Shown here piece after piece: positions 22,479-42,760 of a DNA stretch of 64,000 nt; position 1 is the stretch's first letter, and every line of letters begins with the position of its first letter. The translations under genes and the position numbers were made by a program. Source of the stretch: an uncultured Sphingorhabdus sp. Lineage in GTDB: Bacteria; Pseudomonadota; Alphaproteobacteria; Sphingomonadales; Sphingomonadaceae. The notes beneath the pieces are model-generated. The model was given only the letters and a program-made list of their open reading frames with translations. It was not told the DNA's origin and made no database searches. The stretch is taken from contig CANLOL010000001.1 in assembly GCA_947492905.1 (NCBI GenBank), positions 1,094,578 to 1,158,577 of the forward strand, read 5' to 3'.

Positions 22479-23049
22479 GAAATTCTCTTCTTTATAGGTT
22501 TGATAATTAATGTGAGCGTTAACATAATGCATTTCTATGTCAATATTGTTGATCGTTATTTTCTGATATTCATTAAAAATCAAATCTTCTTAAGATGCCA
22601 TATCGTGCTTAGTTCTGACGAATATGGGCTATTGCGTAATATTTGCTATGGGCGTTGTAATGGCCCAAACTGGCGACCTGTAAACAATTATCTGTGAGAG
22701 CCCATAAAGCGCTTTATGAAGCAAATCAAAGGTTAGAGACAGGGTTATTTTCTGCTGGTTTTATCCAAAGATATTGAAACATAATTGTCGGTGCGGTGAT
22801 TCGAGTTTTTATTTTTTAAAATTAAAAATTCATAAATATCTTCAATAATTCTCTTGCTCAATTCGATAAATTTTGGATTTATGATAGCATTAACAAATGA
22901 GATAAACCCTATGTTTGAGGACTTTACCTACAGATGGATAATAATTTGCCATTACAATTATATATACTTGTAAATTGAACTTGCAATTGATTAAAAAATT
23001 GTAAATATTAAATCTATCAAAATAAAAATTACAATTTAAGGGGTTTGTA
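22479..23049. other. AT-rich intergenic region upstream of the giant autotransporter
   Basis: 571 bp without a convincing gene. One 65-codon frame (22500-22697) has no ribosome site and an unlikely composition. The region should hold the lipoprotein promoter (left) and the autotransporter promoter (right); no clear consensus boxes are seen. The notable element is the inverted repeat at 22996-23037. Confidence 0.6.
22996..23037 (+). promoter_or_regulatory. Leader inverted repeat before the autotransporter gene
   Basis: AAATTGTAA (22996-23004) and TTACAATTT (23029-23037) form a perfect 9-bp inverted repeat with a 24-base loop. It ends right next to the ribosome site AAGGGG that serves the ATG at 23050. 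It could be an operator or an mRNA hairpin that tunes translation; both are inference. Confidence 0.4.
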
Positions 23050-26000: not shown

Positions 26001-29000
26001 CAATACCATTATCACATTGGACTCCGATGCACTCGTTACTGGTCAAGATGGCGAAGGTATTAATGCATCTTCAGTTGGTGTTATGGCCAATATTACGGTT
26101 CAAGGCATGTCTGGCGCTATTGTTGGCGGCACTGATGGCCTAGATATCGACACAATGGGCGCAGATATCCTGGTACAGAATCTCGATAGTGTCACCGGAA
26201 ACAATGGCAATGGTATTGATGCTGTTTCTAATGGTGGTGATATTACCATTACGGACGTTGGTACTATATTGGGTAACGGCAGTGCCTTATCAAACAACAA
26301 TGATAGCGGCTTTATTATTCAGGGCAACAGCGTTTCAGTTGGAACTAATAATAACGGTGTAATTTTAACGTCTTCATTGAATGGCTTTGTATTGAGTGTC
26401 GAAGGCAATGGTATCCATGCTAACAGCAATGATGGTGATGTTTCTATTCAGGGCAGCGGCCTTGTAGGCGGCATTACTGGTACAAATGGCGATGGCATTT
26501 TCGTGTCTTCAGGTGCAGGCGCAGTTAATATTGGCGGTATTTCTGCTATTGGTAATGTAACAGGTTCGGACGACGGTATTGATATCATTAATGGCTTTGC
26601 TGCTGTGGGTGATATTATTGTTAATTCAAGCGCAGGCGTGGTTAGCGGTGGTTCTAATGGTATCGATATTTCAAATAATGGCACTGGTGCAATATCTGTC
26701 ACAACAGCCACAGTTACTGGCGGAGATAATGTTGGTATAAATATTGATAATAGAGGTTCAGATATTGTCATAGACAGTACAGCTGGAACAGCATCAGCTT
26801 TATATTCTGGTATTGTTGTTGATAATAATGGCACTGGATCGGTGACTATTAATACGGCTGATACTATGGGCACTTATGGTGCTGGCGTCTATGTCGCTAA
26901 TGCTTATTATGGCACTGATGTCACTATCGATACTACTGCTGGATCAGCCAATGGCGGATTAGCTGGCATCGGTGTACGCAGCTATGGCAGCGGCGCAATC
27001 ACAATTACATCCGCAGACGCAAGCGCTAATAATATGAGCGCTGGCAGAGGTAGCTATGTCAGCGGTATTGGTGTTTTGAACGCTTTTGGCACAGATATTA
27101 ATATTGATAGCAGTGCCGGTAGCGTAAGCAGCGGCTCTGGATATGGCATATTGGCTATAAACACTGGCACGGGTGATACCAACATTACCGCATCTGATGT
27201 TACAGGCGGGCTCGATGGTATAAGAACCATAAATAGTAGTATTGGTGATATTAATATAACTATTAATGAAATGGCTGAGATCAGAGGCGGTGATATTGGA
27301 ATTAACGCCTTTGCATCAGGCGATGCAGCCGATATTAATATAGATGGCTTATCTGGCTCAACCGTTACAGGCGGCTTAAATGCTATTGATACAAGAAGCG
27401 ATAGCGCAGCTATTAACATTACCAATATAGATACTATTAATAGTAGCGGCGGCTCTGGTATTTTGGCAATTTCCAATTCAGGTGATATTTCTATCCAAGG
27501 TAACGGGCTTATAGGTGGAATCACTGGCGATGGAACGGGCAGTTTCAATATTGGCCGCCAACAATTTAGCAATGGTTTTGGAATATTGGCTACTACTAGT
27601 GGTGACATCAATATTGGCGGAATTGCTAGCAATGGCGATATAGCAGGCAATTATGGAAACGGTATTGGTGCTTATTCAGGATCTGGTAGTATAATAATTG
27701 ACACACAAGAGGGTTCTGTAAGCGGCAATAGTGCGATTTTTGCTCAAGCGCTGAACGGTGCTATATCTGTCACTACAGCTGATGTAACGGGCAATGATGG
27801 TAGCGGTATTATTGCACAAGCCGGTGGGAATGTGACGGTAGACAGTAGCGCGGGAAGCGTTGACGCTGTATTCACTGGTATTTCAGCAAACAGCATTAAT
27901 TTTGGTGATGTGACGGTGAGAGTAGCCGATGTTACGACTGATCGTTTCAATGCTATCAATGTATCCGCCAATGATGGAGCAATTGATATTACATCATTGG
28001 GTACAATTAGTGCTGGAAATAATGGTATTGTTGCTACTGCTAGAAATGGCGATGTCACAATCGACAGCAGCGGCAGCATATCAGCGACCGATGGCAATGG
28101 TATAGCAGTCAATGCTGATAATGGCGGTATTGATATTGTCGCGGCAGATGTATCGGGTGGGCTCAATGCTATTTTGGCAACGATGGGTTCACAATCGCTT
28201 GCTGACTTGATGATTGATACGCGCTTAGGCAGTGTATCTGGCGGTGTAAATGGTATCGTAGCAGTTAATGATGGAGCCGGTTCTATCACTATCACAGCAG
28301 CTGATGTAGAAGTTAATTGCTCTGCTGTTGACTATGGTCCTTCAGGCAATGCTATTTATGCAGTTGCTGGGCAAGGAGGTATCACAATTGATACTTTAGC
28401 GGGCAATGTAGCCGGCGATACTAATGGCATTGTTGCGATTAGCTCTGGTGCTGGCGCAATCAACATTACCAGCAGCGATGTTACAAGCAGCAATGGTACG
28501 GCTATATCAGCCTCTACCAATGGCGGGGGCATCACAGTTGATACCAGCGCAGGTACTGTAACGGGCGACCTGAATGGTATTGTCGTAATAGAGAATGGCA
28601 CTGGTGATAATAGTATAACCATGGGTGAAGCAACAGAAACCAGCAACTCTGCTATTTCTAATTCTACTAATGATGGCGGTATAGCAGTTGATAATAGCAA
28701 CGGCTCTGCAATAGACGGTTTGATTAATATTGCAGCATCTGAGAATAGTACTGGCGATAATAGTATAACCATGGCTGATATCACAGGAACCACCAAAACT
28801 GCTATTTATGCTTCTACCGCAGAGAGCTATGTCACAAGTGTTACTTCGGACGGCAATCTAATTAATGATGATAATTCTGATGTTAGTACTGGCGCAATCA
28901 ATGTTACCAGCGCTGATGTTACGAGCACCAACGGCACGGGTATATCTGCTTCTGCCAATGGCGGCGGTATAACCATAGATACAAGCGCAGGCACAGTAAC

Positions 29001-31221
29001 GGGCGCCGTGAATGGTATTGTGGCAACGGATAATGGCACCGGTGATATTACGATAACCACAGGCAATGTAACAGGAATCAGCAACACAGCCATATACGCT
29101 TCTGCTGCTTCTGGTACTGTTACTCTCAACATAGGCGGCGATGTTACTGGTGGTCAAAATGGCATCGTCACTGTCACTCAAAATGGTACCGATTTTACTG
29201 TTGCAGAAGGTCAAACTATCAGTGGCGGCGTAATTGGCATAGCGACTATGGCATATGATGCCAGCGCTACTTCTAATGATACGTTGAACATTTTGGGAAC
29301 TGTTAATGGTGCAATCATGACCTTTGAAGGTGATGATAGGGTCATCTTGGCTGATGGCAGCACCGTTAATGGCGCAATCATGTTGGGTGATGGTTCTGAT
29401 ACTGTGGTATTGAATGGCGGAACAGTGGGCGCATTACGCGGCGGTGATGGCATTGATACAATTGACTTTAATCTGGAAAATACTGTCATTAACAATAGCG
29501 GTGATACTTCTGCCGATGGTATTGCAGAGTTTGAGATTTATAACTTCAATTCTGATGGCGCAGCGCTAATTGGAACCAATACAGGTTTAACTAGCACCAA
29601 TTTTAATGCAACCAATGCCATATTGATGGGAACACTTGGTTCGAGCAATGTTACTGTTGCATCGGGCGGAAGTCTGCAAGTTGCTGATGGTACATCCATC
29701 ATTGGAAATTTTGTGAATAATGGCAGCCTTGGTATCAATGCTGGTGCTACGGGAACGCTAAATATCGACGGCGGTTTCGCGCAAGGGGCAGATGGCGATG
29801 TCACTTTCAATATCGTATCCGCGTCTGATAATGATCTGATAAATGTTAGCGGGGACATTAGCCTTTCTGGAGCCTTAAATTTGATACAAGGCGATATGTT
29901 TGCTCAAGAGATTAGATTGATAGACGGTGATGCTGGATTGAGCGGTAATTTCACCACTGTTAATGGATTGCTCAGCGGATTATTGCTCGGTCAAGAAATC
30001 GTTACTGATACTGTTAATGCTGATGTCAATCTTGTTACAACTATTGTTGATGCAGCATCGATAGATGGTTTATCGACCAATCAATCATCAATAGCCAATG
30101 CTTTAACGAGCGATTTTGCAAATAATAATCAAACTGGTGGGCTTTCCGATCTCACCATTGGGTTGGGGCTATTACAAGATAGCAGTGTATTATCGGCGGC
30201 ATTGGATGAAATTACGCCAGAGATTGTAAATAGTAATATTGAAGTAACACGATCCAATCAAAATCGTTTCCGTCAGCAATTGCTAAACCAATATATAGCA
30301 CCGCAATATCAAAATGATGGTGCAGCTACGGCATCTCTATTCGCTACTCCAGCGCCAAGCGAAGCTGAAAAAGGCCCAATTATTTGGGGTAATATTGGCT
30401 ATAGCGCTCAACGTAATGACACGACAGCCAATAATATTGGCTATAGGGCAGATGGTATTAACTTAGCTGTTGGTATTTCAAATATTGATGCTGGTGGTTG
30501 GCAGTTTGGTTTTGGCGCAGGTTATTCTGACTTTGATACTGATGATCTAACCGGTGTTCGTGATACAATCAGCAGTGAATTATTCTTCCTAGGTGCTCAT
30601 GTCAGCAAAGGCTTTAACAGCAAAGGCCTCGGCCTTAGCGGCCATATAGATTTAGCAGTTGATTATGGCACGGGTGATAATGATATATCAATTAACTCTG
30701 CTGGCGGATTATTTGGTTTTGGCGGGGTACAAACGGGCAATGCTAATACCGATATTTTTGGGGCATCGCTGCGCTTCACATTAGATGGTAGCGATACTAA
30801 AAAATTCCCTGTTCAACCCTTTGTCAGCATTTCATATGATAGTTTTTCCCAAGATGCTGTTTCATTAACAGGGTCAACAGTAACGGATATATCTATTGAT
30901 GCATTAGACCTTGATCGTGTTAGCTTTGGATATGGTATCCGCGCTGATCAGAAATTGGGTGCGACATCGCTGAAATTAGGCTTCACAGGCTTCTATCATA
31001 CGGGCGATACCCAATCGAACCTAACGACACGTTTCTTATCTGCGGCACCAAATGGCGCAACCTTCCTGTCATCTGGATTTGACATCGAAACGCAATATAT
31101 TGCCGATATAGGAGTTGAACATGAATTTGGTAAAGGATGGCGCGTTTCGCTAGATGGATATGCTGAATTTGGTGACCTAGAGGGTTACGGCGGATTATTT
31201 ACCCTAGGCAAACGCTTTTGA
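23050..31221 (+). CDS. Giant autotransporter (type V secretion) with beta-helical repeat passenger
   Basis: 2723 residues. An extended signal peptide ends near DARAQS (residue 54). The passenger (about 55-2400) is made of degenerate short repeats rich in Gly, Asn, Thr, Asp, Ser with recurring units like ITTADVT, DTSAGTVTG and NGGDITI, typical of a right-handed parallel beta-helix. Cysteines are nearly absent. The C-terminal part from about residue 2440 (GPIIWGNIGYSAQ) to the terminal Phe (LFTLGKRF) is a 12-strand autotransporter barrel by pattern. A near-identical internal duplication lies at 25627-25735 and 25840-25948, separated by a Gly/Tyr-rich insert. The product should be exposed on the cell surface as an adhesin or biofilm factor; no protease or lipase motif is seen. 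AAGGGG ribosome site seven bases before ATG. Confidence 0.93.
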   Translation: MGVISGGAPLGAISRTRSETKSKVSQANLSLALLSTVSATVLSVSIASDARAQSIPAECTVDPSPLASGSTITCVSPTPINDGINTNVDDLTIIVGDDATPTTLNNPAGTGIEVRVNGGGVTVDSSNGTVIGSSGGLFLFDNGAGAVNVTTADVIANRGSAIFAQSTNGGIAVDTSAGMITATSTGINAFDFGVGAVNVESAGVLGGGLGIRTFANGGDTSITLTSGTLVRGSSGEGIFANSSSSGADITLQGMNADLFGGAEGLEIATFGADILVQNLNSVIGNLSDGINTRANGGDITITGANGIRGRGGHGIIADTDGGNISIQGVGLVGGIIGAGPSGDGIYANSSGGDINIGGVEAIGNVTGMRNGIFALSDGDITIDSSAGTVTGVSGGIDARVSGNGELSVTTANVNATSFDGVAAISYSTSNTGGVSVDTSAGTVSGGGRFGIFTRNNGSGDTVITAADVSSNGNDAIYANAGFSASGDIIIDSSAGSVMGISNGIDVDQNGSGAVSIVAADVTSDNNIAIDVQSNGGGISVDSSAGTVSASFDGIRAIDTGTGAVNITTADITTSGFTAINAQSRGGGVAIDTSAGAILGEIFAIDNVTGAVNVTSGDVTSRSRGINASNNGGDITIDSSAGTVSGLYGGISALTSAMGAISVTTADVSGGYLVGISVASNGGDIDITSTGTISAFSGAINSINYSRSNGAHVIDVADVTATNGTAITVTNGNGEHSVTATGDISGTNGILTRSIRGSIDVNVNNVTGTNGRAISVGSLNDDIEVDIVVNGDVRGTTDGIYAASSLSDLMIDTSLGTVYGESNGIVALNNYSGSINIITADVEASNCAAYSRYTGNAIRAVNNGDNLTIDTTAGTITADSIGINATNNESGDLSITTADVEVNNGQVADGGGYYGGYRGRGYYTGGDAIRAVNNGDNLTIDTTAGTITADSIGINATNNGSGDLSISVNDVTGSTSGIISRSSSGNTIITLDSDALVTGQDGEGINASSVGVMANITVQGMSGAIVGGTDGLDIDTMGADILVQNLDSVTGNNGNGIDAVSNGGDITITDVGTILGNGSALSNNNDSGFIIQGNSVSVGTNNNGVILTSSLNGFVLSVEGNGIHANSNDGDVSIQGSGLVGGITGTNGDGIFVSSGAGAVNIGGISAIGNVTGSDDGIDIINGFAAVGDIIVNSSAGVVSGGSNGIDISNNGTGAISVTTATVTGGDNVGINIDNRGSDIVIDSTAGTASALYSGIVVDNNGTGSVTINTADTMGTYGAGVYVANAYYGTDVTIDTTAGSANGGLAGIGVRSYGSGAITITSADASANNMSAGRGSYVSGIGVLNAFGTDINIDSSAGSVSSGSGYGILAINTGTGDTNITASDVTGGLDGIRTINSSIGDINITINEMAEIRGGDIGINAFASGDAADINIDGLSGSTVTGGLNAIDTRSDSAAINITNIDTINSSGGSGILAISNSGDISIQGNGLIGGITGDGTGSFNIGRQQFSNGFGILATTSGDINIGGIASNGDIAGNYGNGIGAYSGSGSIIIDTQEGSVSGNSAIFAQALNGAISVTTADVTGNDGSGIIAQAGGNVTVDSSAGSVDAVFTGISANSINFGDVTVRVADVTTDRFNAINVSANDGAIDITSLGTISAGNNGIVATARNGDVTIDSSGSISATDGNGIAVNADNGGIDIVAADVSGGLNAILATMGSQSLADLMIDTRLGSVSGGVNGIVAVNDGAGSITITAADVEVNCSAVDYGPSGNAIYAVAGQGGITIDTLAGNVAGDTNGIVAISSGAGAINITSSDVTSSNGTAISASTNGGGITVDTSAGTVTGDLNGIVVIENGTGDNSITMGEATETSNSAISNSTNDGGIAVDNSNGSAIDGLINIAASENSTGDNSITMADITGTTKTAIYASTAESYVTSVTSDGNLINDDNSDVSTGAINVTSADVTSTNGTGISASANGGGITIDTSAGTVTGAVNGIVATDNGTGDITITTGNVTGISNTAIYASAASGTVTLNIGGDVTGGQNGIVTVTQNGTDFTVAEGQTISGGVIGIATMAYDASATSNDTLNILGTVNGAIMTFEGDDRVILADGSTVNGAIMLGDGSDTVVLNGGTVGALRGGDGIDTIDFNLENTVINNSGDTSADGIAEFEIYNFNSDGAALIGTNTGLTSTNFNATNAILMGTLGSSNVTVASGGSLQVADGTSIIGNFVNNGSLGINAGATGTLNIDGGFAQGADGDVTFNIVSASDNDLINVSGDISLSGALNLIQGDMFAQEIRLIDGDAGLSGNFTTVNGLLSGLLLGQEIVTDTVNADVNLVTTIVDAASIDGLSTNQSSIANALTSDFANNNQTGGLSDLTIGLGLLQDSSVLSAALDEITPEIVNSNIEVTRSNQNRFRQQLLNQYIAPQYQNDGAATASLFATPAPSEAEKGPIIWGNIGYSAQRNDTTANNIGYRADGINLAVGISNIDAGGWQFGFGAGYSDFDTDDLTGVRDTISSELFFLGAHVSKGFNSKGLGLSGHIDLAVDYGTGDNDISINSAGGLFGFGGVQTGNANTDIFGASLRFTLDGSDTKKFPVQPFVSISYDSFSQDAVSLTGSTVTDISIDALDLDRVSFGYGIRADQKLGATSLKLGFTGFYHTGDTQSNLTTRFLSAAPNGATFLSSGFDIETQYIADIGVEHEFGKGWRVSLDGYAEFGDLEGYGGLFTLGKRF
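25627..25948 (+). repeat. Direct repeat inside the autotransporter gene (213-bp period)
   Basis: About 109 bp at 25627 recur at 25840 with roughly seven mismatches by eye, in frame. Between them lies a segment coding for a Gly/Tyr/Arg-rich stretch (GGYYGGYRGRGYYTGG) that is unlike the rest of the passenger. Confidence 0.8.
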
Positions 31222-31244
31222 TCAAATCTAATATTTATATATAG

Positions 31245-31282
31245 GATGGCCGCTTTCACCATGATGCGGCCATCATGCTTTT
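31245..31282 (+). terminator. Terminator after the autotransporter gene
   Basis: Perfect 9-bp stem GATGGCCGC / GCGGCCATC with a 12-base loop, followed by ATGCTTTT. It separates the autotransporter from the next co-directional gene. Confidence 0.68.
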
Positions 31283-31398
31283 ATAATCATATCATTGCAA
31301 AGATTTATGTTTTCTAATGAAAACATGCTCAATGAGGTTATAGTTGCGAAAGATTATTTTGTTTGCGATGTAATATAAAGATTGAGGAATATATTGTG

Positions 31399-32586
31399 AT
31401 GGCTAAAAAAAATACTGGCAGCAAAAATACTGGCAGCAGTGACACCAAAAAGCCTGTTAAAAAAGAAGCAAAAAAGGCTGATAATAAATCATCTTCAAAA
31501 GCTGCTACTGAGACAGAAAAACCTCAAAAAGACGAACCTAATAAGGCTCAAACAGAAGCGAGTAAAACTGAAATTAATTTTTCAGCTGGCCTCGCCAATT
31601 TCCTGCATAGCAATAATATCTCCCTTGGTTTTACCTCTTACCAAACGGGCAGGCTCTATCTCATTGGTTCTAGCGCCGATGGGAAATTAGCATTGCATGA
31701 AGTGCAATATCCGCAAGCAATGGGTGTTCAAGGCGATAATGAACGTATCTATCTTGGTACGTTGACCCAAGTCATACGTTTAGAAAATGTACTCACTACT
31801 GGGCAATTGGCCAATAAAGCGCATGATAAAGTCTATGTCCCGCGCAACATGCAAACCACTGGTAATATTGATATTCATGAACTTGGTGTCCGTAAAAATG
31901 GCCGCTTGGTTTTTATCAACACACGCTATAGCTGTTTGTGCGAACCTGATATTAAACATAGCTTCAAACCGATTTGGAAACCTAAATTCATATCCAAACT
32001 CGCACCCGAAGATCGTTGTCATTTGAATGGGCTAGCTATGGTTAATGGTGAACCCAAATATGTCACAGCTATATGCCGCAGCGATGTCATTGATGGGTGG
32101 CGTGATCGGCGCGATGATGGGGGCGTCATTATTGATATTGATACCGATGAGATTATGGCCGAAGGGCTTTCTATGCCCCATAGCCCGCGTTGGTTTAATG
32201 GCAAATTATGGGTGTTAAATTCTGGGACTGGTGAATTGGGATGGATTAATCCTGATGACAAAAGTTTTAACGCGGCTGCATTCTTTCCTGGATTTTTAAG
32301 AGGCTTAGCTTTTCATGATAATTACGCCATTACGACATTATCAAAACCGCGCTATAAACGTTTTGATGGCTTAAAATTAGCCGATACATTGGCCGAGAAA
32401 GATGCGGATGCTTGGTGCGGTGTGCAAATCATCAACCTGCAAAGTGGTGATGTCGCGCATTGGATAAGATTTGATGGTGCTATCTCAGAATTGTTCGATG
32501 TATGTGTCTTACCCGGCGTTAAAAATCCTATCACATTGGGACTAAACTCACCAGAAATCCGAGACTTTATCACTTTCCCATCATAA
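31399..32586 (+). CDS. TIGR03032 family protein
   Basis: About 396 residues. The first 55 residues are Lys/Ser/Thr-rich and probably disordered (KKNTGSKNTGSSDTKK and following). The rest matches the TIGR03032 (DUF4915) family, a beta-propeller-like protein of unknown function: TGRLYLIGSSADGKL, YVPRNMQTTGNIDIHEL, INTRYSCLC, DRCHLNGLAM, SDVIDGWRDRRDDGGV, MPHSPRWFNGKLWVLNSG, PGFLRGLAFHDNYA, WCGVQIINL and the ending SPEIRDF are conserved there. No signal peptide. Start: ATG at 31399 with GAGGAA nine bases upstream; a GTG at 31396 is equally possible, while a TTG at 31363 is not favoured. It follows the autotransporter but has its own terminator-bounded unit. Confidence 0.87.
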   Translation: MAKKNTGSKNTGSSDTKKPVKKEAKKADNKSSSKAATETEKPQKDEPNKAQTEASKTEINFSAGLANFLHSNNISLGFTSYQTGRLYLIGSSADGKLALHEVQYPQAMGVQGDNERIYLGTLTQVIRLENVLTTGQLANKAHDKVYVPRNMQTTGNIDIHELGVRKNGRLVFINTRYSCLCEPDIKHSFKPIWKPKFISKLAPEDRCHLNGLAMVNGEPKYVTAICRSDVIDGWRDRRDDGGVIIDIDTDEIMAEGLSMPHSPRWFNGKLWVLNSGTGELGWINPDDKSFNAAAFFPGFLRGLAFHDNYAITTLSKPRYKRFDGLKLADTLAEKDADAWCGVQIINLQSGDVAHWIRFDGAISELFDVCVLPGVKNPITLGLNSPEIRDFITFPS

Positions 32587-32736
32587 TATTATTATAGTTT
32601 CAAATATGCTGACCCGCTTGCATTTCTATTTTAGAGGGCCTGTGAATTTATGATTTATTTGCTGCCTAAGATGCAAATGAAACTTTCATATATTTAGTGC
32701 ATAAGAATAATATATTCATCATTATCATGTGCAGGT

Positions 32737-32753
32737 AAATGGTGGACAGGATA
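32737..32753 (-). repeat. Probable attachment-site remnant: copy of the tRNA-Tyr 3' end
   Basis: The 17-base sequence AAATGGTGGACAGGATA occurs here and at 42672-42688, where it is the 3' end of tRNA-Tyr (last T-arm bases, acceptor strand, A, CCA) plus three flanking bases. Same orientation, about 9.9 kb apart, on the 3' side of the tRNA. Further residues toward the T-loop match partly (GTT..AA). This is the arrangement left by integration at a tRNA 3' end. Confidence 0.65.
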
Positions 32754-32855
32754 TCCTTATAACTTATTAAATAAAGCATTGATAATTATAGATAAATATT
32801 TCTATAAATATTTATTTACCACAGTATTTACCACATAGAGGCAAGATAACTGCTA

Positions 32856-33071
32856 TCATTGGTGCTTTGCTTTAATCACCTTTTTTGTTTTACCGCAATT
32901 ATAGCAATTGCCTTTTTCACGCATAAAATTGTTTTGCTCGGCCAATTGACGGGTTTTGTGATTGGCATGTTGGCGAACCGTTAAATTCAGCTTTTCAGCT
33001 ATGCAATCATCGCAAATGGCATGGGGCGATAAACGTTTTATCAATTGGTCAACATCATCAAGCACAGTCAT
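32856..33071 (-). CDS. Small zinc-ribbon protein coupled to the restriction-modification gene
   Basis: 71 residues with two CxxC pairs (CDDC at about 20-23 and CYNC at about 56-59), which would form one four-Cys zinc site. The middle is basic and helical (NLTVRQHANHKTRQLAEQ) and resembles a DNA-binding helix pair; the C-terminus is Lys-rich. The ATG at 33071 overlaps the stop of the upstream restriction-modification gene as ATGA, so the two are translationally coupled. I do not know a named family. A regulatory or accessory role to the enzyme is an inference from the coupling. Confidence 0.75.
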   Translation of the reverse strand: MTVLDDVDQLIKRLSPHAICDDCIAEKLNLTVRQHANHKTRQLAEQNNFMREKGNCYNCGKTKKVIKAKHQ

Positions 33072-36000
33072 ATATTGGCCTCTAGCAGCGTGATTTCATC
33101 GGGGGTTAGGTCAAACAGGGCATAGACCGCAGCGTTAATATCATCCTCGGCGGATTGGATTTGTGCGCTTAAGGCGTTGATTTGGCTGCGGGTTTCGGAA
33201 ATCCAGCTTTCCCATTCATTGCGTTCTTTTAGAGGAATATCAGCTTTTAATGTCTTTTTGACCTCTTTTTGAAAGGCCGCAAAATCGGGCAGCTCCCACC
33301 ATGATTTGAGCCTATTGCTAAGCTTTGCGGTGGCGGGATTAGCCGATAGATCGGGGATGCGCCGCGTAATGCTTTGTTGCAGCGTATAGCGCTCTTCGGC
33401 GCAGCTTTGTGCTTTTTCCGCCAATGCGCCAAGCGCTGCTTTTTGTTCATCGGTAGCGGCTGGGATTGGCAGTGAATTTATATACGGTGTTCGCAATTCG
33501 TAAAATTTACCACGAACAATAGGCGCTAGTCCGGTCAAGATTAGCCACAATACATTTGAATGTAGCAACCCTAATAAAGTATTGCATTCAGTTGGGATAA
33601 TATAGGTTTTATCGTTGGATAAAGCTTCTAAATTTGCACTGGAGAATAGTGGTCGTGGCGAAAAGTGACCATATACTATTCTACGCTGTGAAAATTTTTC
33701 ATGATAATCTATACTGTCTTGAATTTCATACCATTTATAACTTCCAGATTTCCTTCCTTGCCATTTCTCGCTGGGTTCACTTGATTTCCAACCTTTGGGT
33801 TTTGGCTCAAGACTCTCCCGATGCTCTGCTAAGTGAGCTTTAATTGCGGGGTAACTATCAATATCAATACCTCGACGCGTAAATATAAGATATTTATCTT
33901 CACTCATTATAAACCAAGGTTTTGTATCATCCCCTACCCACCAAGGTTTTAATATTTCGGCTGATTTTGGGTCTTGCGCAATCAATCGGTCGCGGGTGGC
34001 GCGGTCAATGACAAAGGCATCATTACGCCCTGTTAATATACCACGATAAGGCGAACCATACACCTCTTTCAATGTATTTTTGCCGCTCACAATCTTGGCG
34101 CGTAAGGCTTGCAGGGCTGGGCTTTCCAATTCCCATGATCCATCGGTAAGCGCCTTTTGCGGATAGGGCTGGGCATGCTCATGATAGGCATCGGCAAAAT
34201 TATCTTTGGGCAGATTCTCAATCGTCCAAAATTGCAGCATATGACCATTATCGGGTTTTTCGGCGCGCATGGTCAATATAGCGGGATAGGTGGTGACGCC
34301 CTCAAATATTTGATGATCGCCAAAATCGACGATGCTTTCCATCGCCGCATTTTTGCGCAAATAATCGCGTAAGGGCTTGCCCGACCCTGTTTTAAAAAAT
34401 GTGCTGCTGCTGATATAGCCCATACGACCGCCCGTTTTGAGCAGGCGCAATCCCCGCTCAAAGAAATAGGCATAAAGATCAACCACGCCATGATAAACAT
34501 CAAAGCGTTTTTGCAAATAGGGCTTTAATTCTTTCAGCAATTCTTGACGCACATAGGGCGGATTGCCCAGCACAATGTCAAAACCGCCGCCCGCGCCATC
34601 GTGATCGGCAAAAATCTCTGGAAAAGCCTCTTTCCAGACAAAGCCATGTTCACGATATGCAAAGCTTGAATCCTCTATCAAGCTATCGCCCACGCGCAAA
34701 TTTTTGTCCAAACTGTCCAGCACCTTGCCGCGCCGTGCGGTTTTTATCCATAAGCTTAATTTGGCAATCTCCACGCTCTCGCTATTCACATCAACGCCAA
34801 ATAGATTATGGGTCAAAATTTCGCTATCGGGGTCAAGCAAATCACCCGCCATTCCGCTGCCCGATAATTCAGCTATTATGCTATTCACTTGGCCAAGCTT
34901 TATTTTCAGATAATCAAAGGCCATGATTAAAAATACACCCGAACCGCAAGCGGGATCAACAATGCGCAATGATGTTAGGCGTTTGCGATATTCCGCCCAT
35001 GCTTCCCGTTCTGCCTTGGCTGATTTCCATTTGATTGGATCATCATCGGCCTTTGCGCCCTTGGTGGCATATTGCGCCAATATATCGTTGAATATTTCAT
35101 CGCAATGCACACCCAATGTTTGATCGACAATGAAACGCGCCACATAATCGGGGGTATAAACCACGCCATCACGCTTGCGCCGTCCGCTTGTGCCAGTGCT
35201 TTTCTTTTCGGGGGCAATTTCGCCCAATGCCTCGGCCTGTAATATTTCAACATCGGCAATGGATTGCTCAAATATATGTCCCAAAACGGTGACGGATATT
35301 TCCGATGCAAAATCATATTCTGCCAGCCGCTTAAAGCCTTCACAAATATGATCGGGGATTATTATTTCGCGTATGATAGGATTGCGTTTGAACAGGCCGC
35401 CATTATATTTGGGAATATTTAGCGCTTCATTGCCTTTGTCTATGGCGGTGAATAGGCCAATGAAATTTTGCCAAACATCAACGGTGGCAAAGGCATTTTG
35501 CGATTCATAGGCGCTGGCAATAATATCATCGGGCAATAGCCCATTATCCTCGGCAAAGGCGATGAACAAAATACGGTCTAATATGGTTTGACCAATGCCA
35601 ATGGCTTCCAGCCCGTCCATATCGGGTTTTGCCGCCTGCACCGCGCCGATAAGATCAGAGCGTAATATTTTATAATCGCTATAGAGCGCCGCCGATATAT
35701 CTTTATCCTCTTTGCGGCTTTCGGACAGTAAATCTAGTGTTGCACCGCCCAATATATTATCGGCGGATAGCAATAACATAAAGCGATGATATTCATCGGC
35801 TTCATGCAATTTGGATAGGTCAAAACTCTCATAAAATTGTTTGCCATCGGCATAGCTATAAAGGCGTATTTCCAAATAATTGGATAATAGCACCCATTTG
35901 CTGCCCACATTGTTGCTGGCATATTCCCATGCTTGATCGGCGGGGCTTTTGGCGCGCCCTGCCATGATAGCGTCTAGGTCTTTGGTATCTGCACCCTTTA

Positions 36001-36370
36001 GTTCGAACGGGGCAATGATATTGGCTTCATTGGCTGTAAAATGCCCAATGGCCAAATCAACGCGCCCGCCGCCAATTTGCGTTTCAACGTCAATAGTCCA
36101 TGCGCCCGATTGCGATGATGGGGCATAGCCCAAAACCTCAACCATGATTTTTTGCTTAAATTCACCTGCTAACGCGGTTTCTTTTTGGCTATGGATTTGT
36201 TTGGATACAATATTGGCGGCCCATTCGCGCAATTTTTGCACCTTAGCATCATCGGGTGGTGGTGCATGGGCGATGTGACGCGCTATTGTTTTCTTATTAA
36301 ATAGTTGCACGAACCCCGTCCCGATTAAACCTCTATCATCTATCCCTAACAAAGCATGACAATTGCGCAA
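33068..36370 (-). CDS. Type IIG-like single-chain restriction-modification enzyme (Eco57I-like)
   Basis: Up to 1100 residues combining nuclease, adenine methyltransferase and target recognition. N-terminal PD-(D/E)xK-type site: GGGRVDLAIG near residue 104 and FELKGAD near 122. Methyltransferase: SAM motif I DPACGSGVFLIMAFD about 470, motif IV GNPPYVRQE about 602 (N6-adenine type). C-terminal TaqI-like specificity region with YKWYEIQD, FSQRRIVYGHFSPRPLF and RTPYINSLPIP. Such enzymes cut DNA lacking their own methylation and act in phage defence. The longest frame starts with TTG at 36370; the GTG at 36310 (VQLFNKKTIARHI) is the likelier start. The frame is intact. Confidence 0.9.
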   Translation of the reverse strand: MRNCHALLGIDDRGLIGTGFVQLFNKKTIARHIAHAPPPDDAKVQKLREWAANIVSKQIHSQKETALAGEFKQKIMVEVLGYAPSSQSGAWTIDVETQIGGGRVDLAIGHFTANEANIIAPFELKGADTKDLDAIMAGRAKSPADQAWEYASNNVGSKWVLLSNYLEIRLYSYADGKQFYESFDLSKLHEADEYHRFMLLLSADNILGGATLDLLSESRKEDKDISAALYSDYKILRSDLIGAVQAAKPDMDGLEAIGIGQTILDRILFIAFAEDNGLLPDDIIASAYESQNAFATVDVWQNFIGLFTAIDKGNEALNIPKYNGGLFKRNPIIREIIIPDHICEGFKRLAEYDFASEISVTVLGHIFEQSIADVEILQAEALGEIAPEKKSTGTSGRRKRDGVVYTPDYVARFIVDQTLGVHCDEIFNDILAQYATKGAKADDDPIKWKSAKAEREAWAEYRKRLTSLRIVDPACGSGVFLIMAFDYLKIKLGQVNSIIAELSGSGMAGDLLDPDSEILTHNLFGVDVNSESVEIAKLSLWIKTARRGKVLDSLDKNLRVGDSLIEDSSFAYREHGFVWKEAFPEIFADHDGAGGGFDIVLGNPPYVRQELLKELKPYLQKRFDVYHGVVDLYAYFFERGLRLLKTGGRMGYISSSTFFKTGSGKPLRDYLRKNAAMESIVDFGDHQIFEGVTTYPAILTMRAEKPDNGHMLQFWTIENLPKDNFADAYHEHAQPYPQKALTDGSWELESPALQALRAKIVSGKNTLKEVYGSPYRGILTGRNDAFVIDRATRDRLIAQDPKSAEILKPWWVGDDTKPWFIMSEDKYLIFTRRGIDIDSYPAIKAHLAEHRESLEPKPKGWKSSEPSEKWQGRKSGSYKWYEIQDSIDYHEKFSQRRIVYGHFSPRPLFSSANLEALSNDKTYIIPTECNTLLGLLHSNVLWLILTGLAPIVRGKFYELRTPYINSLPIPAATDEQKAALGALAEKAQSCAEERYTLQQSITRRIPDLSANPATAKLSNRLKSWWELPDFAAFQKEVKKTLKADIPLKERNEWESWISETRSQINALSAQIQSAEDDINAAVYALFDLTPDEITLLEANI

Positions 36371-36714
36371 ACTATTTCATGAATGGTTAGGCAGTTTTAT
36401 TAATAGCAATGCGTTTTTATGGGCGTAATAGCTTTGCATTGAAAAATATTTCATACGTTAAAATTATAGACAAGCTTTTGTTCAGTCTATTCACAGAATA
36501 TACTTAATTATCCGCATTGCTGTTTAGTTCGCAGCTTTTGGATTAAAAGCAGATATGATTTGTATCATAATATTGGCTAGTGTCACTGAGAATAAAATAA
36601 AAATATTATATAAAAACCGTCATATATAGCGACGATGTTATCAAGGCATATTCTCTATATTAATCCATTAAATCTAACTTTATTTTTATCATCTGATGTG
36701 AGATAATATGTTTA
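36371..36714. other. AT-rich divergent intergenic region inside the island
   Basis: 344 bp between the restriction-modification gene and the LuxR-type gene, clearly richer in A+T than flanking genes. It must hold both promoters. I see no clear operator, repeat or RNA structure. Confidence 0.5.
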
Positions 36715-37176
36715 ATGAACATAAGTCGGAGCTATATATTGAATGATTTCTTAAGCGATAAATTGTCAAAAAGACAAAGAGAATGCTTGGAATTGGTTGC
36801 AGATGGATACACATCAAAGCAAATTGCTCGTATTCTTAATCTATCTCCTTCGACTGTGGATAATCATATCAATACAGCTGTATCCGTTACTGGAGCTCAA
36901 GGGCGGGCTGATGCGGCTCGAAAATTAGCACAAAATAGCATTAGGCAGAATTCACCTAGTCAATCTAAAGCTATTGCAACTCCGTACAATTTTGAGAATT
37001 TGGATAAGCCTCCAAAATGGAGGGAATTTTTTATTTTACCAACTTTGTGGGGAATAACAGCTGAATTAACTTGGAAGACTAAACTGCTTCATATTTTACA
37101 AATTAGCATTGTGGTAAGTATGGCGATTGTTGCCATAACATTAATTATGACAGGGTTTATGGAAATTTTGAGTTAG
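36715..37176 (+). CDS. LuxR-type HTH protein with C-terminal membrane anchor
   Basis: 153 residues. The GerE/LuxR DNA-binding domain lies at 17-72: LSKRQRECLELVADGYTSKQ, IARILNLSPSTVDNHI and GRADAARKLA. A linker of about 45 residues follows, then a single transmembrane helix (about 124-147, HILQISIVVSMAIVAITLIM). There is no receiver or autoinducer domain, so this is a membrane-tethered regulator of the kind seen scattered in sphingomonads (recollection, not checked). First of three co-directional genes with gaps of 26 and 25 bp. Low GC compared with neighbours suggests transfer. Confidence 0.82.
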   Translation: MNISRSYILNDFLSDKLSKRQRECLELVADGYTSKQIARILNLSPSTVDNHINTAVSVTGAQGRADAARKLAQNSIRQNSPSQSKAIATPYNFENLDKPPKWREFFILPTLWGITAELTWKTKLLHILQISIVVSMAIVAITLIMTGFMEILS

Positions 37177-37202
37177 CCCCACATCGTAATTGTAAGGAGA
37201 TT

Positions 37203-37550
37203 ATGATGAATATTGAAGAGAGATACGGAGATATCCTAGCTAACAGCACACGCAATTCCATTAAAAGTACAAATAAAGCACTTAGTGACAATCTGTCATT
37301 GATGAATACTCTCTTGGAAGTTTCAGAAGTATCAAATGCACCATTAACCCTTGATCAACCTCTGATCGAACAATGCAGCACTATGATTGCAGATACAGTG
37401 GCAGCCAGAAGGAATGTAACCCGTTTTGTTGATAAGATTACGCGCGCTAAAAATGCAAGTAACCTTGAAGCACGTACTTTTGGGTGCCCACGTGGTAAAG
37501 ACGAGAATATTACAAAGGCAGATCATTCAAAGGAAGCTATTATAGGCTAA
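37203..37550 (+). CDS. Small soluble protein of the LuxR/membrane cassette, unrecognised
   Basis: 115 residues (or 114 from the second ATG at 37206, which has better spacing to AAGGAG). Mostly helical by composition: RNSIKSTNKALSDNLSLMNT and CSTMIADTVAARRNVTRFVD, then a polar tail. One Cys in each half (CSTM, FGCPRG). No signal peptide or membrane segment. The family is unknown to me. Its place between a membrane-anchored HTH protein and a polytopic membrane protein suggests that all three work together. Confidence 0.72.
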   Translation: MMNIEERYGDILANSTRNSIKSTNKALSDNLSLMNTLLEVSEVSNAPLTLDQPLIEQCSTMIADTVAARRNVTRFVDKITRAKNASNLEARTFGCPRGKDENITKADHSKEAIIG

Positions 37551-37575
37551 GTTCGTATGAACTTGTTGGTTGGAA

Positions 37576-38028
37576 ATGGAATTAATAGACCAAACAAATG
37601 CTATTCTATATTGGTTGCTATGCCTAGTTTCATGCGGGTATGTAGCTTATGCTGGTAAAAAAGAAGGGCTACTAGTGAGTGTGTTTATACTTGTAGCCTC
37701 GCTTCTTACGTTCCTTGTATATGAATTAGACCAATGGACTACGACTAATCTAATTGTTTTATCGATAGATATTTCATTATTGATTGGACTATTAATTATC
37801 GCAATACAAAGTGATAAAAATTGGTTGCTGTGGATATGTAGTTTTCAGCTTATTGGTACAATGACGCATATTTCAGCTGATATTGTTTCTTCCGTGGCGC
37901 CAAGAGTATATCAACTGGTAAATGGGTTTTGGTCAATACCATTGATTTTAACAATGGTATTGGGCGTGTTTACATCAAAGGCATTTAATGATGATGGGCA
38001 TGATTTGAAACCTCCAAAAGCGCCGTAA
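37576..38028 (+). CDS. Small polytopic membrane protein of the same cassette, unrecognised
   Basis: 150 residues, with about five hydrophobic helices: roughly 9-26, 30-50, 58-77, 82-100 and 115-134. Short polar ends, no signal peptide, no known transporter motif. A TTG six bases upstream (37570) is in frame, but the ATG at 37576 is preferred. Inner-membrane location is inferred. Third gene of the cassette; nothing in the sequence tells the substrate or signal. Confidence 0.75.
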   Translation: MELIDQTNAILYWLLCLVSCGYVAYAGKKEGLLVSVFILVASLLTFLVYELDQWTTTNLIVLSIDISLLIGLLIIAIQSDKNWLLWICSFQLIGTMTHISADIVSSVAPRVYQLVNGFWSIPLILTMVLGVFTSKAFNDDGHDLKPPKAP

Positions 38029-38218
38029 TCAAGTTTATACGGTTCCAAGTGATAATGCACCAATTCAATATTAATCTGTTGAATTGATGATTATAAAACC
38101 AACACTCCTTGGATGCTGATGCCCTGTTCTTACCTATCCTATGATGGCTATTTTAGCCCATAAAACAAATCCAAATAATAAAATAATATAAATATTTTAG
38201 CTTGGGGGAGACTATAAT

Positions 38219-41200
38219 ATGATTATACAAAAGAGTGACCTGCTAAGTGATTTTAAGTTTGATGCGGGAATACACGCGCGCACATCTCTTTATACCAAGC
38301 TTTTGATTAATGCATCTGCATTGGCAGTCATCTTAGCTACCCCAGCGCAATCACAAACCATAATCTCTGCAGAGGGTATTGATGGGACAGGTGACGGAAT
38401 AAGTTTTCCCGAAACCGGTGATCAATTTGGAACTTTGTCTGGAACATTCGACGGAACAATCCCAACACAAACTGATACCACAGCCACAGCACCACAATAT
38501 GGCGTTCTATTTGGAGGAACCAATCAGCCGACTATTGGTGACAGAATACGTTACACGCTGGATGCTAGCTATGACATAACGCGTTTTGAACTGGCGAATG
38601 ATACGAATTTACTAAATGGTGAACTTGACGGGATCCTCAATTTCACACTGGTTTTCTATGATGTAAATGACAATGAAGTTTACCAACAATCCTTCACTGG
38701 TGCGGCTAGCAGAATAGGTACCGCGCAAGCAGTACAACAATTTGTTTTGGCATCACCTGCACTGAATGCAAGGTCGTTTGACCTAGTAATCGATGCCGCC
38801 CACTCTCGAGCGCCTCTGCAATGGCGCGAAGTAGCAGTTGTTGGGTTTACCGGCCCAAGCGGTCTCGCAACTCCCTACCCTGTAACCCCTCAACCCATTA
38901 CCTTTTGCACCGTAGACAGCATGTTGTTTGAGCAAACCTTTAACGACAGCTCAAACGGTGGATGGCTAGCTCGCGTCAATGCGCAGAACCGTGAAAACCC
39001 TCCTTTTCCATTTAGCGCAGCTACAAATAATGTCGATAATGACAATGGTACTTCTACCGACGCTACTATAGATGCAGCCCTTAATGGCGGTAATGGCGCA
39101 GCCAGTCCATCTGGTGGTGCTTTTGTCAGTGCCTTTGACCATACGGGCAATTCGGCTCATTGGCTTAGAGAAGGTATAGGAAATATGTCAGCTGCGGTTG
39201 GCGGCGTCATTTATCTGGAAAAATGGAACTGGCGTCGAAACGTTCCAGCTGGCGGCATCGGGAATGTTGGACAAGATTATATGATATTAGGCGCAAATGG
39301 ACAGCGTCTATTCTACAGTGCACCGGATCAAACGGACGCATTGGAAGCGGGGCAATGGGAAATCATTCAAGCTCGATTGCAACCTGGGCCGGGCTGGTTT
39401 CTTATGACTGATGGCGGCGGCAACACAAACCGCCGCATTCGTAATGGAGGAGCAATTAGAACTGCAACCGCCGCAGACTTCACCAATGTATTGGCGAATG
39501 TCGTTGCTATAGGTAGCCAAGTCGAAGGCATCGCTTCCTTTGACTACCCTGATTCTTCAACTCAAGATTCTTCAGGCTTGCCCAATGCAACATTAGCAGA
39601 GCGCTATGCTCTTGATACTGTAAGAATGGCTTCCTGCGTTTCTGAAGCACAGATCGGCGTTTCCAAATCCTTTGGAACACCAATTGAAAATGGTGATGGT
39701 ACAGTCGATCTTCCATATACTGTCAATATCCGCAATACTGGCAACAGTACGCTCGATAATCTTCAATTAGTGGATAATATTGCCGCGCAATTTGGTTCAG
39801 CTTTTCTTGCATCAAATGCAGCGGACACTTCGGGTGGTGTATTAGCAGGGCCAATTGTGTCAACTGCAAATGGCAACCCAACTTTGCCAACAGCTCTAAC
39901 CAATAGTTATAACGGTACAGGCAATCTTTTCGACGGCGCAACTGGTTCGCTCGCTCCGCTGGATGAAATATCAATTACCTTCACTGTACGAATTAACCCA
40001 CGTGCTTCTGGCGCTCCAACGCAATTTGCCAATACTGCAACCGCATCAGCCGACGATCCAACTGATAATCGTGTTAGCGACTTATCAAATACAGGTCTTG
40101 ACCCAACGATCAATCCTGGTGGACCGGGTATTGCGACAATCTATACACCGCCACCTCCTCCACCAGATGCTGATTTAGTGACAATCAAAACTCTAACATC
40201 TGGCGACGATACACCAGCAGCAGGTGATACCGTCACCTTTCAAATCGCTGTGCGTAATGATGGACCGGCTGATGCCACTAATGTCAGTCTAACCGATCTA
40301 TTGCCTAATGGTCTGACAGCAACTACCAATAACGGCACGACCGATGATGGCACGGGCAATCCCGTTGGTATTTATGATGATACGAGCGGAATCTGGAACA
40401 TCGGTAATCTGGCCAATGGTGATAGCGCTACGCTTACATTGGAAGGCGAAGTCGATGCGGGTGAAGGCGGCAATACAATTGAGAATATCACTACTGCTGC
40501 TACAGGCGACCAACCTGATCCAACGACAACGGGTGATGATCTCACCGAGGGCTTTACGGTTGTTGTGCCATCTTCAGCGTTTCTGCCTCCCAATCCTGTA
40601 GCTCGTTGTCGAGCCAATTGGTATCGTTGGACTACTCGGAGACGTTTGCTTATAGATAGTCAAAACGCTCTCAATCCAAGATTCCATGAATTTAGCTTTA
40701 GAACAACAGAGTTGGGCGCAAACCGCTGGTATGTACCGCAAGGTGCCCGAAACGCACAGCAATTGAATTTGAGTTCACGTGTCGAGCCAAATATTTTGAA
40801 CAATAATGCAGGTGAAGCTCATTATGGGGTCATCAATTATGAGCTTGAGCCGGGCACTAACACAATCATTCCACTTAACGATCCAGGTCTATTCGAAGGA
40901 CATGCTTTTGCCGCCTTTGATAGTGTGGGACGACAAATAGCTAGATATCCTACTTCAGCCCAAGTTGGCAGCGGCGTGCAGTATATAGCAAGTTTCAATT
41001 TTGGCGGTGGACAGCGAGGCCAGCAAAATGATCTGCGTTTAGGCGCGTCATGGACAAGTAATGCATTTGTTGTACCAGTTCCGGATGATGGTCAAGTTTT
41101 TGTGCATTACATTATCACTGATGAAGCATCAGATGGTCGGGGAGCAATCCGTTATTGCCCAGAAGATCGTTCGGATGCTCCAACCTCTTATGGTGCAGTC

Positions 41201-42394
41201 TCCCATGAATATGAAAATGACTTGCTGCTTGGATCTCGCAAAGATGTTGATCGCGCAGCGTTTACCGCCGGAGGTGCAATCGGTGACGATAATGATGGCG
41301 TGAATGGTTCAGATGAAGACGGTGTTGCTTCATTCGATCCGATTGACGATCAAACAGACAGTTATTCAGTTGTATCTTCGGTTACGAATAAAGGCACAAC
41401 AGATGCTACTCTTTATGGATGGATCGACTTTGACCAGAGTAATACATTTGAACCAGATGAATTCGCATCCATTGCTGTTCCAGCAGGCACAGATTCTGGT
41501 TCTGTGACATTGGAATGGAATGATACAACTAATATTGCGGCTGGTGATACTTTCGTTCGACTTCGTTTGACGACAACCCCACTTACTAATGCCCAAGCGG
41601 GATCTGTTCTTGCTTTGGACGGAGAGGTTGAGGACCATGCGTTGACGATAACGGCTGCACCACTAGATGCTGATTTAGTGACAATCAAAACTCTAACATC
41701 TGGCGATGACACACCAGCAGCAGGTGATACCGTCACCTTTCAAATCGCTGTGCGTAATGATGGACCGGCTGATGCCACTAATGTCAGTCTAACCGATCTA
41801 TTGCCTAATGGTCTGACAGCAACTACCAATAACGGCACGACCGATGATGGCACGGGCAATCCCGTTGGTATTTATGATGATACGAGCGGAATCTGGAACA
41901 TCGGTAATCTGGCCAATGGTGATAGCGCTACGCTTACATTGGAAGGCGAAGTCGATGCTGGTGAAGGCGGCAATACAATTGAGAATATCACTACTGCGGC
42001 TATAGGCGACCAACCTGATCCGACTGATGATGGTAATGATCTTACAGAAAGTGTGACGGTTCTATCACGAGCAGATTTATCGATTACGAAGACTAATACT
42101 CCTGGTGAAAATAGTGAGGTTGATCAAACAGACGATACCGTAACCAGTGGTAGTACTAGCACATATACTATTAGGGTTACCAATAATGGTCCTGATTCCA
42201 TTACGGGAGCCGTTGTTAGAGATGCACCTGGGGCGGGGTTAACTTGTAATGCGAGTGATCCAGTTACGCTCTCAGGCGATGGGGTTCCTGCTGGAACTTT
42301 CTCAATCGCAGATCTTACTGGTTCGGGTATTACACTTGGTAATCTTGATGATGGGCAAACCGCAATTATTTCCTATTCATGTGAAGTCAATTAG
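38219..42394 (+). CDS. Large exported DUF11/GEVED repeat protein
   Basis: 1391 residues. An extended signal peptide ends near ATPAQSQ (residue 46). Then a globular N-terminal region (about 47-470), a first DUF11-like module (about 475-640), DUF11 copy A (about 650-768), a 380-residue middle region ending in a GEVED domain (DDNDGVNGSDEDGVASF to about 1145), DUF11 copy B (about 1149-1268) and a last DUF11 module up to the end (ISYSCEVN). Copies A and B are nearly identical in DNA. The bacterial Ig-like DUF11 and GEVED domains point to a surface or secreted structural protein. No anchor, sorting signal or barrel is present at the C-terminus, so it may be secreted or truncated. GGGGGAG ribosome site. 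Last gene of the putative island. Confidence 0.9.
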   Translation: MIIQKSDLLSDFKFDAGIHARTSLYTKLLINASALAVILATPAQSQTIISAEGIDGTGDGISFPETGDQFGTLSGTFDGTIPTQTDTTATAPQYGVLFGGTNQPTIGDRIRYTLDASYDITRFELANDTNLLNGELDGILNFTLVFYDVNDNEVYQQSFTGAASRIGTAQAVQQFVLASPALNARSFDLVIDAAHSRAPLQWREVAVVGFTGPSGLATPYPVTPQPITFCTVDSMLFEQTFNDSSNGGWLARVNAQNRENPPFPFSAATNNVDNDNGTSTDATIDAALNGGNGAASPSGGAFVSAFDHTGNSAHWLREGIGNMSAAVGGVIYLEKWNWRRNVPAGGIGNVGQDYMILGANGQRLFYSAPDQTDALEAGQWEIIQARLQPGPGWFLMTDGGGNTNRRIRNGGAIRTATAADFTNVLANVVAIGSQVEGIASFDYPDSSTQDSSGLPNATLAERYALDTVRMASCVSEAQIGVSKSFGTPIENGDGTVDLPYTVNIRNTGNSTLDNLQLVDNIAAQFGSAFLASNAADTSGGVLAGPIVSTANGNPTLPTALTNSYNGTGNLFDGATGSLAPLDEISITFTVRINPRASGAPTQFANTATASADDPTDNRVSDLSNTGLDPTINPGGPGIATIYTPPPPPPDADLVTIKTLTSGDDTPAAGDTVTFQIAVRNDGPADATNVSLTDLLPNGLTATTNNGTTDDGTGNPVGIYDDTSGIWNIGNLANGDSATLTLEGEVDAGEGGNTIENITTAATGDQPDPTTTGDDLTEGFTVVVPSSAFLPPNPVARCRANWYRWTTRRRLLIDSQNALNPRFHEFSFRTTELGANRWYVPQGARNAQQLNLSSRVEPNILNNNAGEAHYGVINYELEPGTNTIIPLNDPGLFEGHAFAAFDSVGRQIARYPTSAQVGSGVQYIASFNFGGGQRGQQNDLRLGASWTSNAFVVPVPDDGQVFVHYIITDEASDGRGAIRYCPEDRSDAPTSYGAVSHEYENDLLLGSRKDVDRAAFTAGGAIGDDNDGVNGSDEDGVASFDPIDDQTDSYSVVSSVTNKGTTDATLYGWIDFDQSNTFEPDEFASIAVPAGTDSGSVTLEWNDTTNIAAGDTFVRLRLTTTPLTNAQAGSVLALDGEVEDHALTITAAPLDADLVTIKTLTSGDDTPAAGDTVTFQIAVRNDGPADATNVSLTDLLPNGLTATTNNGTTDDGTGNPVGIYDDTSGIWNIGNLANGDSATLTLEGEVDAGEGGNTIENITTAAIGDQPDPTDDGNDLTESVTVLSRADLSITKTNTPGENSEVDQTDDTVTSGSTSTYTIRVTNNGPDSITGAVVRDAPGAGLTCNASDPVTLSGDGVPAGTFSIADLTGSGITLGNLDDGQTAIISYSCEVN
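40165..40521 (+). repeat. Direct repeat copy A (DUF11 module)
   Basis: 357 bp repeated at 41665-42021, offset exactly 1500 bp (500 codons). Only five mismatches are seen by eye; 40211-40458 is identical over 248 bases. Confidence 0.93.
41665..42021 (+). repeat. Direct repeat copy B (DUF11 module)
   Basis: Second copy of the 357-bp unit at 40165-40521. Same frame, so recombination between the copies would delete 500 codons without a frameshift. Confidence 0.93.
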
Positions 42395-42456
42395 ATGAAG
42401 AATATGGAAAAACTCCCATAGATTTAGAAATGCTTGTATCTATAATTTATGACCTA

Positions 42457-42660
42457 CTATGCTGCATCTTTGCTAGATGCATTGCACGTGTTAAGGATAT
42501 CGCAAACTCTTATAATTGGATTGCCAGTACTGTTTCTTTTGAACCTAGCGTCTGATATTTTGTTTTGTGCCGCATCGCCTGCCAATAATGTTGCTGCCAC
42601 ATTTGCCGCATTGTCTCTGTAATGCGTTCCTATGGGCTTATACGTGGTGTTTGAGAATAT
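42457..42660 (-). pseudogene. Possible remnant reading frame next to tRNA-Tyr
   Basis: A 68-codon open frame without an ATG, ending in TAG at 42459-42457. Its translation (for example THYRDNAANVAATLLAG and NPIIRVCDILNTC) has protein-like composition but no family I recognise. It lies between the DUF11 gene and tRNA-Tyr, where an integrase gene would be expected for a tRNA-targeted element; the residues do not show integrase motifs. May be the 3' remnant of a lost gene or chance. Confidence 0.2.
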
Positions 42661-42674
42661 TCAAAAATAGGAAA

Positions 42675-42760
42675 TGGTGGACAGGATAGGATTCGAACCT
42701 ATGTACTCTAACGAGGGCAGATTTACAGTCTGCTGCCTTTAACCACTCGGCCACCTGTCC
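42675..42760 (-). tRNA. tRNA-Tyr(GTA)
   Basis: 86-nt class II tRNA including an encoded CCA. Acceptor GGACAGG pairs with CCTGTCC, D-arm GGCCGAGTGGTTAAAGGC, anticodon stem-loop CAGACTGTAAATCTG with anticodon GTA, long variable arm, T-arm with GGTTCGAATCC. Its 3' end is duplicated at 32737-32753. Confidence 0.97.

Follow-up and report, generated by a model that had tools for sequence, protein, structure and literature searches.

The tRNA-Tyr(gta) gene of the window, by which we mean the whole 64,000-nucleotide stretch of DNA analysed, was located by ARAGORN at 42675..42760 on the minus strand, with its CCA encoded. A 17-bp core repeat, AAATGGTGGACAGGATA, covered the 3' end of this gene (42672..42688, plus strand) and recurred as an exact copy on the same strand at 32737..32753. 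These two copies, taken as the tRNA-side and distal att sites, enclosed a segment of 9.9 kb. Beginning 3 nt outside the tRNA, the 17 bp ran through the CCA, the discriminator and the 7 nt of the acceptor strand and took in 3 nt of the T stem. The left copy lay on the 3' side of tRNA-Tyr, was oriented as a displaced tRNA 3' fragment and overlapped no listed ORF of 80 aa or more, the neighbouring ORFs ending at 32586 and 33068. Allowing up to two mismatches, no third copy was found in the window, where shuffled sequences gave a mean of 0.02 matches, or in the whole genome of 2,592,622 bases. The original prediction had reported this repeat in the same orientation and had judged a 17-base match improbable by chance; both points were borne out. 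It had also read partial similarity continuing toward the T-loop, which we considered as a possible tRNA remnant. Only 8 of 15 bases agreed with the tRNA there. The same stretch was identical at 13 of 15 positions to the left end of an island in the related genome G038, which itself agreed with the tRNA at 7 of 15 positions over the corresponding stretch. It is therefore the island's own sequence, and a decayed tRNA beyond the 17 bp was ruled out.

As background, 70 tRNA-Tyr rows were scanned for another occurrence of the tRNA-Tyr 3' end in flanks no longer than about 10 kb; row L043 was left out as a self-match artefact. Scores ranged from 5 to 13 in 68 of the 69 rows and reached 21 in L061. 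The window repeat corresponds to 17 on this scale, made up of 14 bases inside the tRNA and 3 outside, the outside part being counted by hand. Row L004, from the relative G043, was among the 68 low-scoring rows, since the real distal copy of that genome is 16.3 kb away and so fell beyond the scanned flank.

Several other loci displayed features of their own around tRNA-Tyr. L061 is a likely tRNA-Tyr island, with a second tRNA-end copy (17 bases inside the tRNA plus outer flank) about 5.9 kb away on the 3' side and an integrase match within 4 kb. In G005, two copies of the tRNA-Tyr 3' end, both with the flank downstream of it, lay 83 bp apart (L120 reverse complement, 13843 and 13926), which may mark the place from which an island was excised. 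G031 had a second, nearly identical tRNA-Tyr 3' end 14 kb off (L122:2384 and 16440), its downstream flank matching as well; this is a candidate island end. G043 carried a degraded copy of the tRNA-Tyr 3' end (L115 reverse complement, 8964; net score 13 over 25 bases), 5.6 kb outside its distal repeat and perhaps the scar of an older island.

The main cargo gene of the segment encodes a predicted type IIG restriction-modification enzyme of 1100 aa in an open frame (33068..36370, minus strand). It matched Pfam Eco57I, a methylase domain (E 1.1e-42), and the PADLOC model REase_MTase_IIG (PDLC03609) over residues 53-1096 (E 9.3e-140). The type IIG class is assigned by this methylase domain and the near full-length model match, the nuclease activity being a prediction. 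Like type IIG enzymes, it is a single long protein; what sets it apart is a region diverging strongly from the copy in G038. The two proteins were 83-85% identical, with the lowest identity at about aa 800-950, and the 2.5-kb main block of the gene was 91% identical at the DNA level. When window 33068-36370 was compared with L189:11663-14920, most 50-residue blocks were more than 85% identical, as against only 9-23 of 50 residues per block at about aa 800-950. This divergent part probably determines which sequence is recognised, as the specificity region of type IIG enzymes does. The comparison suggests that the recognition sequence changed between the window and G038 enzymes.

Next to the restriction gene, a 6.1-kb cargo block (36431..42503) contained a LuxR-type (GerE) HTH regulator of 153 aa (36715..37176, plus strand), two small ORFs and a 1391-aa protein with DUF11 and GEVED repeats (38219..42394, plus strand). 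G038 has about 540 bp at this place. Since 6.1 of the 9.9 kb lacks a counterpart here in G038, the window island is not simply the G038 island minus its integrase. The first 627 aa of the DUF11 protein had no match in the 44 other genomes of the genus sample at E 0.001, and a 115-aa ORF had just weak matches, none better than E 2.9e-8, in nine of these 44; both were unmatched in G037 and G038. The LuxR-type regulator and a 152-aa ORF had no match at E 1e-8 in the 92 loci searched.

The original prediction had found no integrase visible in the segment and had proposed a profile search for integrase fragments. PF00589, searched at E values up to 10, identified five places in the genome, none of them inside the segment, and tblastn with the integrases of two relatives gave a best E of 0.60 across 19400-42675, in agreement with that reading. 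Using the integrase-bearing ends of G037 and G038 as blastn queries, we detected no integrase sequence, only short end matches and chance-level hits. No integrase with Arm-DNA-bind_3 and Phage_integrase domains was found in the segment, which is therefore classed as an integrase-less derivative and not as an active island. An integrase at G000:C1:1298388 was set aside: it lies outside the window and is 32% identical to the G037 integrase.

The genus sample searched comprised 45 genomes, our own included. Of the named relatives of the neighbouring TrmH-type gene, the nearest two bear the label uncultured Sphingorhabdus. By this gene the nearest genomes were G038 (96%), G037 (94%) and G043 (86%), and in all three an integrase adjoins tRNA-Tyr. 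G037 (L003) and G038 (L113, contig C6) encode an intact 392-aa tyrosine integrase, 98% identical between the two, with its start 141 bp away from the 3' end of the tRNA. The G037 protein contains Arm-DNA-bind_3, Phage_int_M and Phage_integrase domains (arm-binding, central and catalytic), and integrases of this kind are presumably P4-type. G043 has a different integrase of 532 aa. A survey covered 80 named loci, 75 of them with a tRNA-Tyr and 69 with 1 kb or more of sequence 3' of it. In 11 of these 69, a match to one of the two integrases, in some cases weak or partial, lay no more than 4 kb from the tRNA-Tyr 3' end. tRNA-Tyr is a recurrent integration target.

The G038 island lies on two contigs, C17 and C6, both of which break inside it; an ORF on the same strand is open at both breaks. 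Because of this split, we infer that the left end on C17 and the integrase end on C6 belong to one island. C17 carries the identical 17-bp repeat, and the first 102 bp of the island left end (window 32737-32838, of which 32754..32838, plus strand, lies beyond the core) are 89% identical. Between this left end and the restriction gene G038 has about 1.4 kb, with an addiction-module-antidote-like gene and one further ORF, compared with 230 bp in the window. Past the restriction gene, the stretch of about 540 bp is followed by sequence matching window 42504-42641, and C17 ends 179 bp beyond that match. Besides the integrase, the C6 part encodes a PC4-domain protein, a small HTH protein that matched excisionases weakly, one further protein and the contig-cut ORF. 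G037, a genome 86% complete, had no strong match to the restriction gene, but its integrase is 98% identical to that of G038. The window shares its core and left end with G038, and its right end with both G037 and G038.

The right end of the segment joins two parts of such an island. The stretch at 42504..42641 (minus strand) is homologous to interior sequence of the G038 island, in ORF L189:15455-15904, at 82% and 90% identity in two pieces with an internal gap of about 70 bp. This ORF had no Pfam or NCBIfam match and a single PHROG hit (E 0.049). Immediately beyond, from about 42645 to 42672, the window matches the tRNA-side end of the G037 and G038 islands, leaving 42645..42671 (plus strand) as the last ~27 bp of the island's integrase-side terminus. 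The blastn matches to the two junction sides overlap at 42633-42641, and the probable deletion junction was placed by eye at 42642..42645. Because homology to the island interior meets these ~27 bp of the integrase side, at least 3.3 kb including the integrase is missing relative to G038, namely 179 bp of C17, about 3.1 kb of C6 and a gap of undefined size. This looks like the loss of one module rather than general decay.

Paired CCACA-type sites occur in the window and beside integrases of its relatives. Two direct repeats of TTTACCACA, 12 bp apart, lie at 32815..32835 (plus strand) in the conserved left end. This pair is perfect and is the sole such pair in the window at up to three mismatches; none of 60 simulated windows contained one. 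The G038 left end also carries the pair, and G037 and G038 both have it between the integrase and the tRNA. It was absent from the 200 bp at the window right end. CCACA pairs 11-13 bp apart and within 300 bp of tRNA-Tyr, a motif chosen after viewing the six loci with a full-length L003-like integrase, were found in five of those six (L003, L025, L007, L033 and L064); in the sixth, L006, one site reads CCACT. The pair occurred in none of the five loci with other or partial integrase matches (L077, L011, L004, L061 and L038) and in none of the 61 remaining tRNA-Tyr loci, 58 of which were integrase-tested and three of which had too little flank. By blastn, the L003 arm region matched the window left end at E 0.001, hardly stronger than an unexplained match at E 0.004 in the same scan. 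In G043, TTTTGTAACA-like repeats were seen by eye at the integrase-side end, with similar ones at the far end. We read the CCACA pairs as probable arm-type binding sites of the integrase.

Substitution rates in the restriction gene bear on the age of the island. Leaving out the divergent part between the two blocks, comparison with G038 gave dN 0.037 and dS 0.236 over the first 740 aligned codons and dN 0.065 and dS 0.373 over the last 137 codons. The dS of nine neighbouring core ORFs between the same genomes was 0.32-0.87. The 740-codon block fell below all nine, and the 137-codon C-terminal block exceeded one of them. Since the long block of the restriction gene has a lower dS than the core genes, the island probably arrived after the species of the window and G038 split. 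The comparison suggests such a transfer, although a low dS could also come from codon bias or recombination. That the left flanks of the two islands differ agrees with separate insertions. The original prediction, of an old island whose integrase was lost, therefore stands in part: the comparison with G038 and the junction point to a tRNA-Tyr island with a lost integrase, while the open cargo gene, the low dS and the differing left flanks speak against 'old' and 'decayed'.

An empty tRNA-Tyr site was not found in G037, G038 or G043, all three having an integrase beside tRNA-Tyr. Outside the left repeat, 13.3 kb of the window (19433-32736) had no match in the compared stretches of G038 and G043. 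Given the lack of homology to G038 there, the target region already differed between the two genomes or has changed since. The G038 left flank, searched in G037, G038, G043 and G000, had no match in G037. Among proteins encoded outside the left repeat, the DUF4915 gene product had no match in G037, G038 or G043, and the histidine kinase had only distant partial matches (about 24-44%) in these genomes. Of the 92 loci searched with left-flank proteins, L115 (G043) alone matched the aldehyde dehydrogenase and thiolase strongly, and EF-hand matches came from L115 and L189 only; DUF4915 had none. All of the DNA between the EF-hand gene and tRNA-Tyr appears to be a variable zone.

The genes at 19433-32736 also include a two-component pair, a 2723-aa autotransporter-like protein and the DUF4915/TIGR03032 protein. 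On the G038 side, L188 and L189:1-9003 of contig C17 hold an apparent conjugative element with type IV secretion, relaxase-like and efflux genes, as judged from ORF listings. The last 58 bp of this element are identical to the 3' part of the window tRNA-Leu, so integration may also take place at that neighbouring gene.

Collectively, we consider it very probable that an island carrying the type IIG enzyme integrated at the tRNA-Tyr 3' end by means of a tyrosine integrase of the G037/G038 kind, and that its integrase module was later lost. Against this reading stand the failure to find an empty site, the non-homologous left flanks of the window and G038, the split of the G038 island over two contigs, the 6.1 kb that has no counterpart there, the lack of a strong restriction-gene match in G037, the missing pair in L006 together with the choice of the pair motif after inspection, and the modest blastn match of the L003 arm region. 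Insertion by such an integrase would have rebuilt the 3' end of the target tRNA and displaced the old end to 32737. A deletion at about 42642-42645 would then have removed the integrase, its arm-site pair and accessory genes. What it spared would be the left end, core and arm-like pair included, and ~27 bp at the right. With only these ends remaining, the island can probably no longer move, whereas its restriction gene is still intact.

The segment could instead be a satellite-like, non-autonomous passenger that never had its own integrase and moved with the trans-acting integrase of another tRNA-Tyr island. Such a passenger would be expected to resemble the window in keeping the core and arm-like pair at its left end; integrases of the same type at tRNA-Tyr in several relatives could have served it, and the dS of the restriction gene, lower than that of core genes, would allow recent movement. 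However, the right end joins the interior of a G038-type island to the outermost ~27 bp of its integrase side, as a deletion leaves, and with the integrase-side arm pair missing, excision in trans would probably be impaired. We regard this origin as improbable. To much the same degree we doubt tandem accretion, in which the left repeat would mark the far end of one island within an array and the integrase would have disappeared when a neighbouring island excised or recombined. The 13.3 kb without a match in the compared G038 and G043 stretches would fit an array, and the degraded tRNA-Tyr copy outside the G043 distal repeat indicates that arrays may occur. Against it, window positions 18001-43000 held no third copy of the tRNA-Tyr 3' end (the next best scored 8 of 25), and the junction does not fall at a core. 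Least credible by far is a coincidental 17-bp match within ordinary accessory chromosome. The G+C content of the segment, 43.7% against 45.4% and 45.7% in its surroundings, might be cited in its favour, but the copy is exact and genome-unique where 0.02 matches at two mismatches were expected, an identical repeat bounds the corresponding left end in G038, and the window exceeds the background of 68 of the 69 loci. A chance repeat was accordingly rejected, and integration followed by loss of the integrase module remains the reading we prefer.

Several known systems resemble the window island in part. Islander defines an island by an intact tRNA gene and a displaced 3' fragment on its 3' side in the same orientation, 2-200 kb in length, and applies an integrase filter that rejects islands without an integrase (PMC4383910). 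The window island agrees with this definition in its tRNA and fragment geometry, its non-coding fragment position and its 9.9-kb length, and its repeat identity stops within the T stem, close to the class of T-stem region crossovers tabulated there. It is unlike Islander islands in that no integrase was found inside, so it would be filtered out. The E. coli GI-pheV islands are reported to keep intP4 as the conserved gene, deletions having taken cargo modules or the distal repeat; the islands were selected for having an integrase (PMC11537424). Common to both systems are the integrase beside the tRNA 3' end (here in the relatives), variable cargo, short direct repeats and module deletions. Unlike GI-pheV as described there, the window island keeps both repeats and its integrase is gone. 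Further close counterparts are the draft islands of G037 and G038, both of which have the target and a similar right end in common with the window, G038 also the left end, arm-like pair and restriction gene; they differ in keeping an intact integrase and accessory genes. Among the titles and abstract openings of the literature matches listed, none concerned tRNA-Tyr islands of this genus. Remnants of this kind are known and the event behind them is an ordinary one; the example in the window is well resolved and unusually fully documented.

Finders that rely on an integrase, Islander among them (PMC4383910), reject integrase-less islands. Here the repeat, the conserved ends and a relative together show what was lost and where, making this island a useful worked case of one fixed in place with its restriction gene intact; judged from the ends that remain, this island is probably immobile. 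More tentatively, the paired CCACA-type end sites might form a code that tracks the integrase clade at tRNA-Tyr, and integrase-less islands could possibly be assigned through them to an integrase able to recognise, and perhaps move, them in trans. The leftover paired sites suggest a way to spot such remnants and the class of their recombinase.
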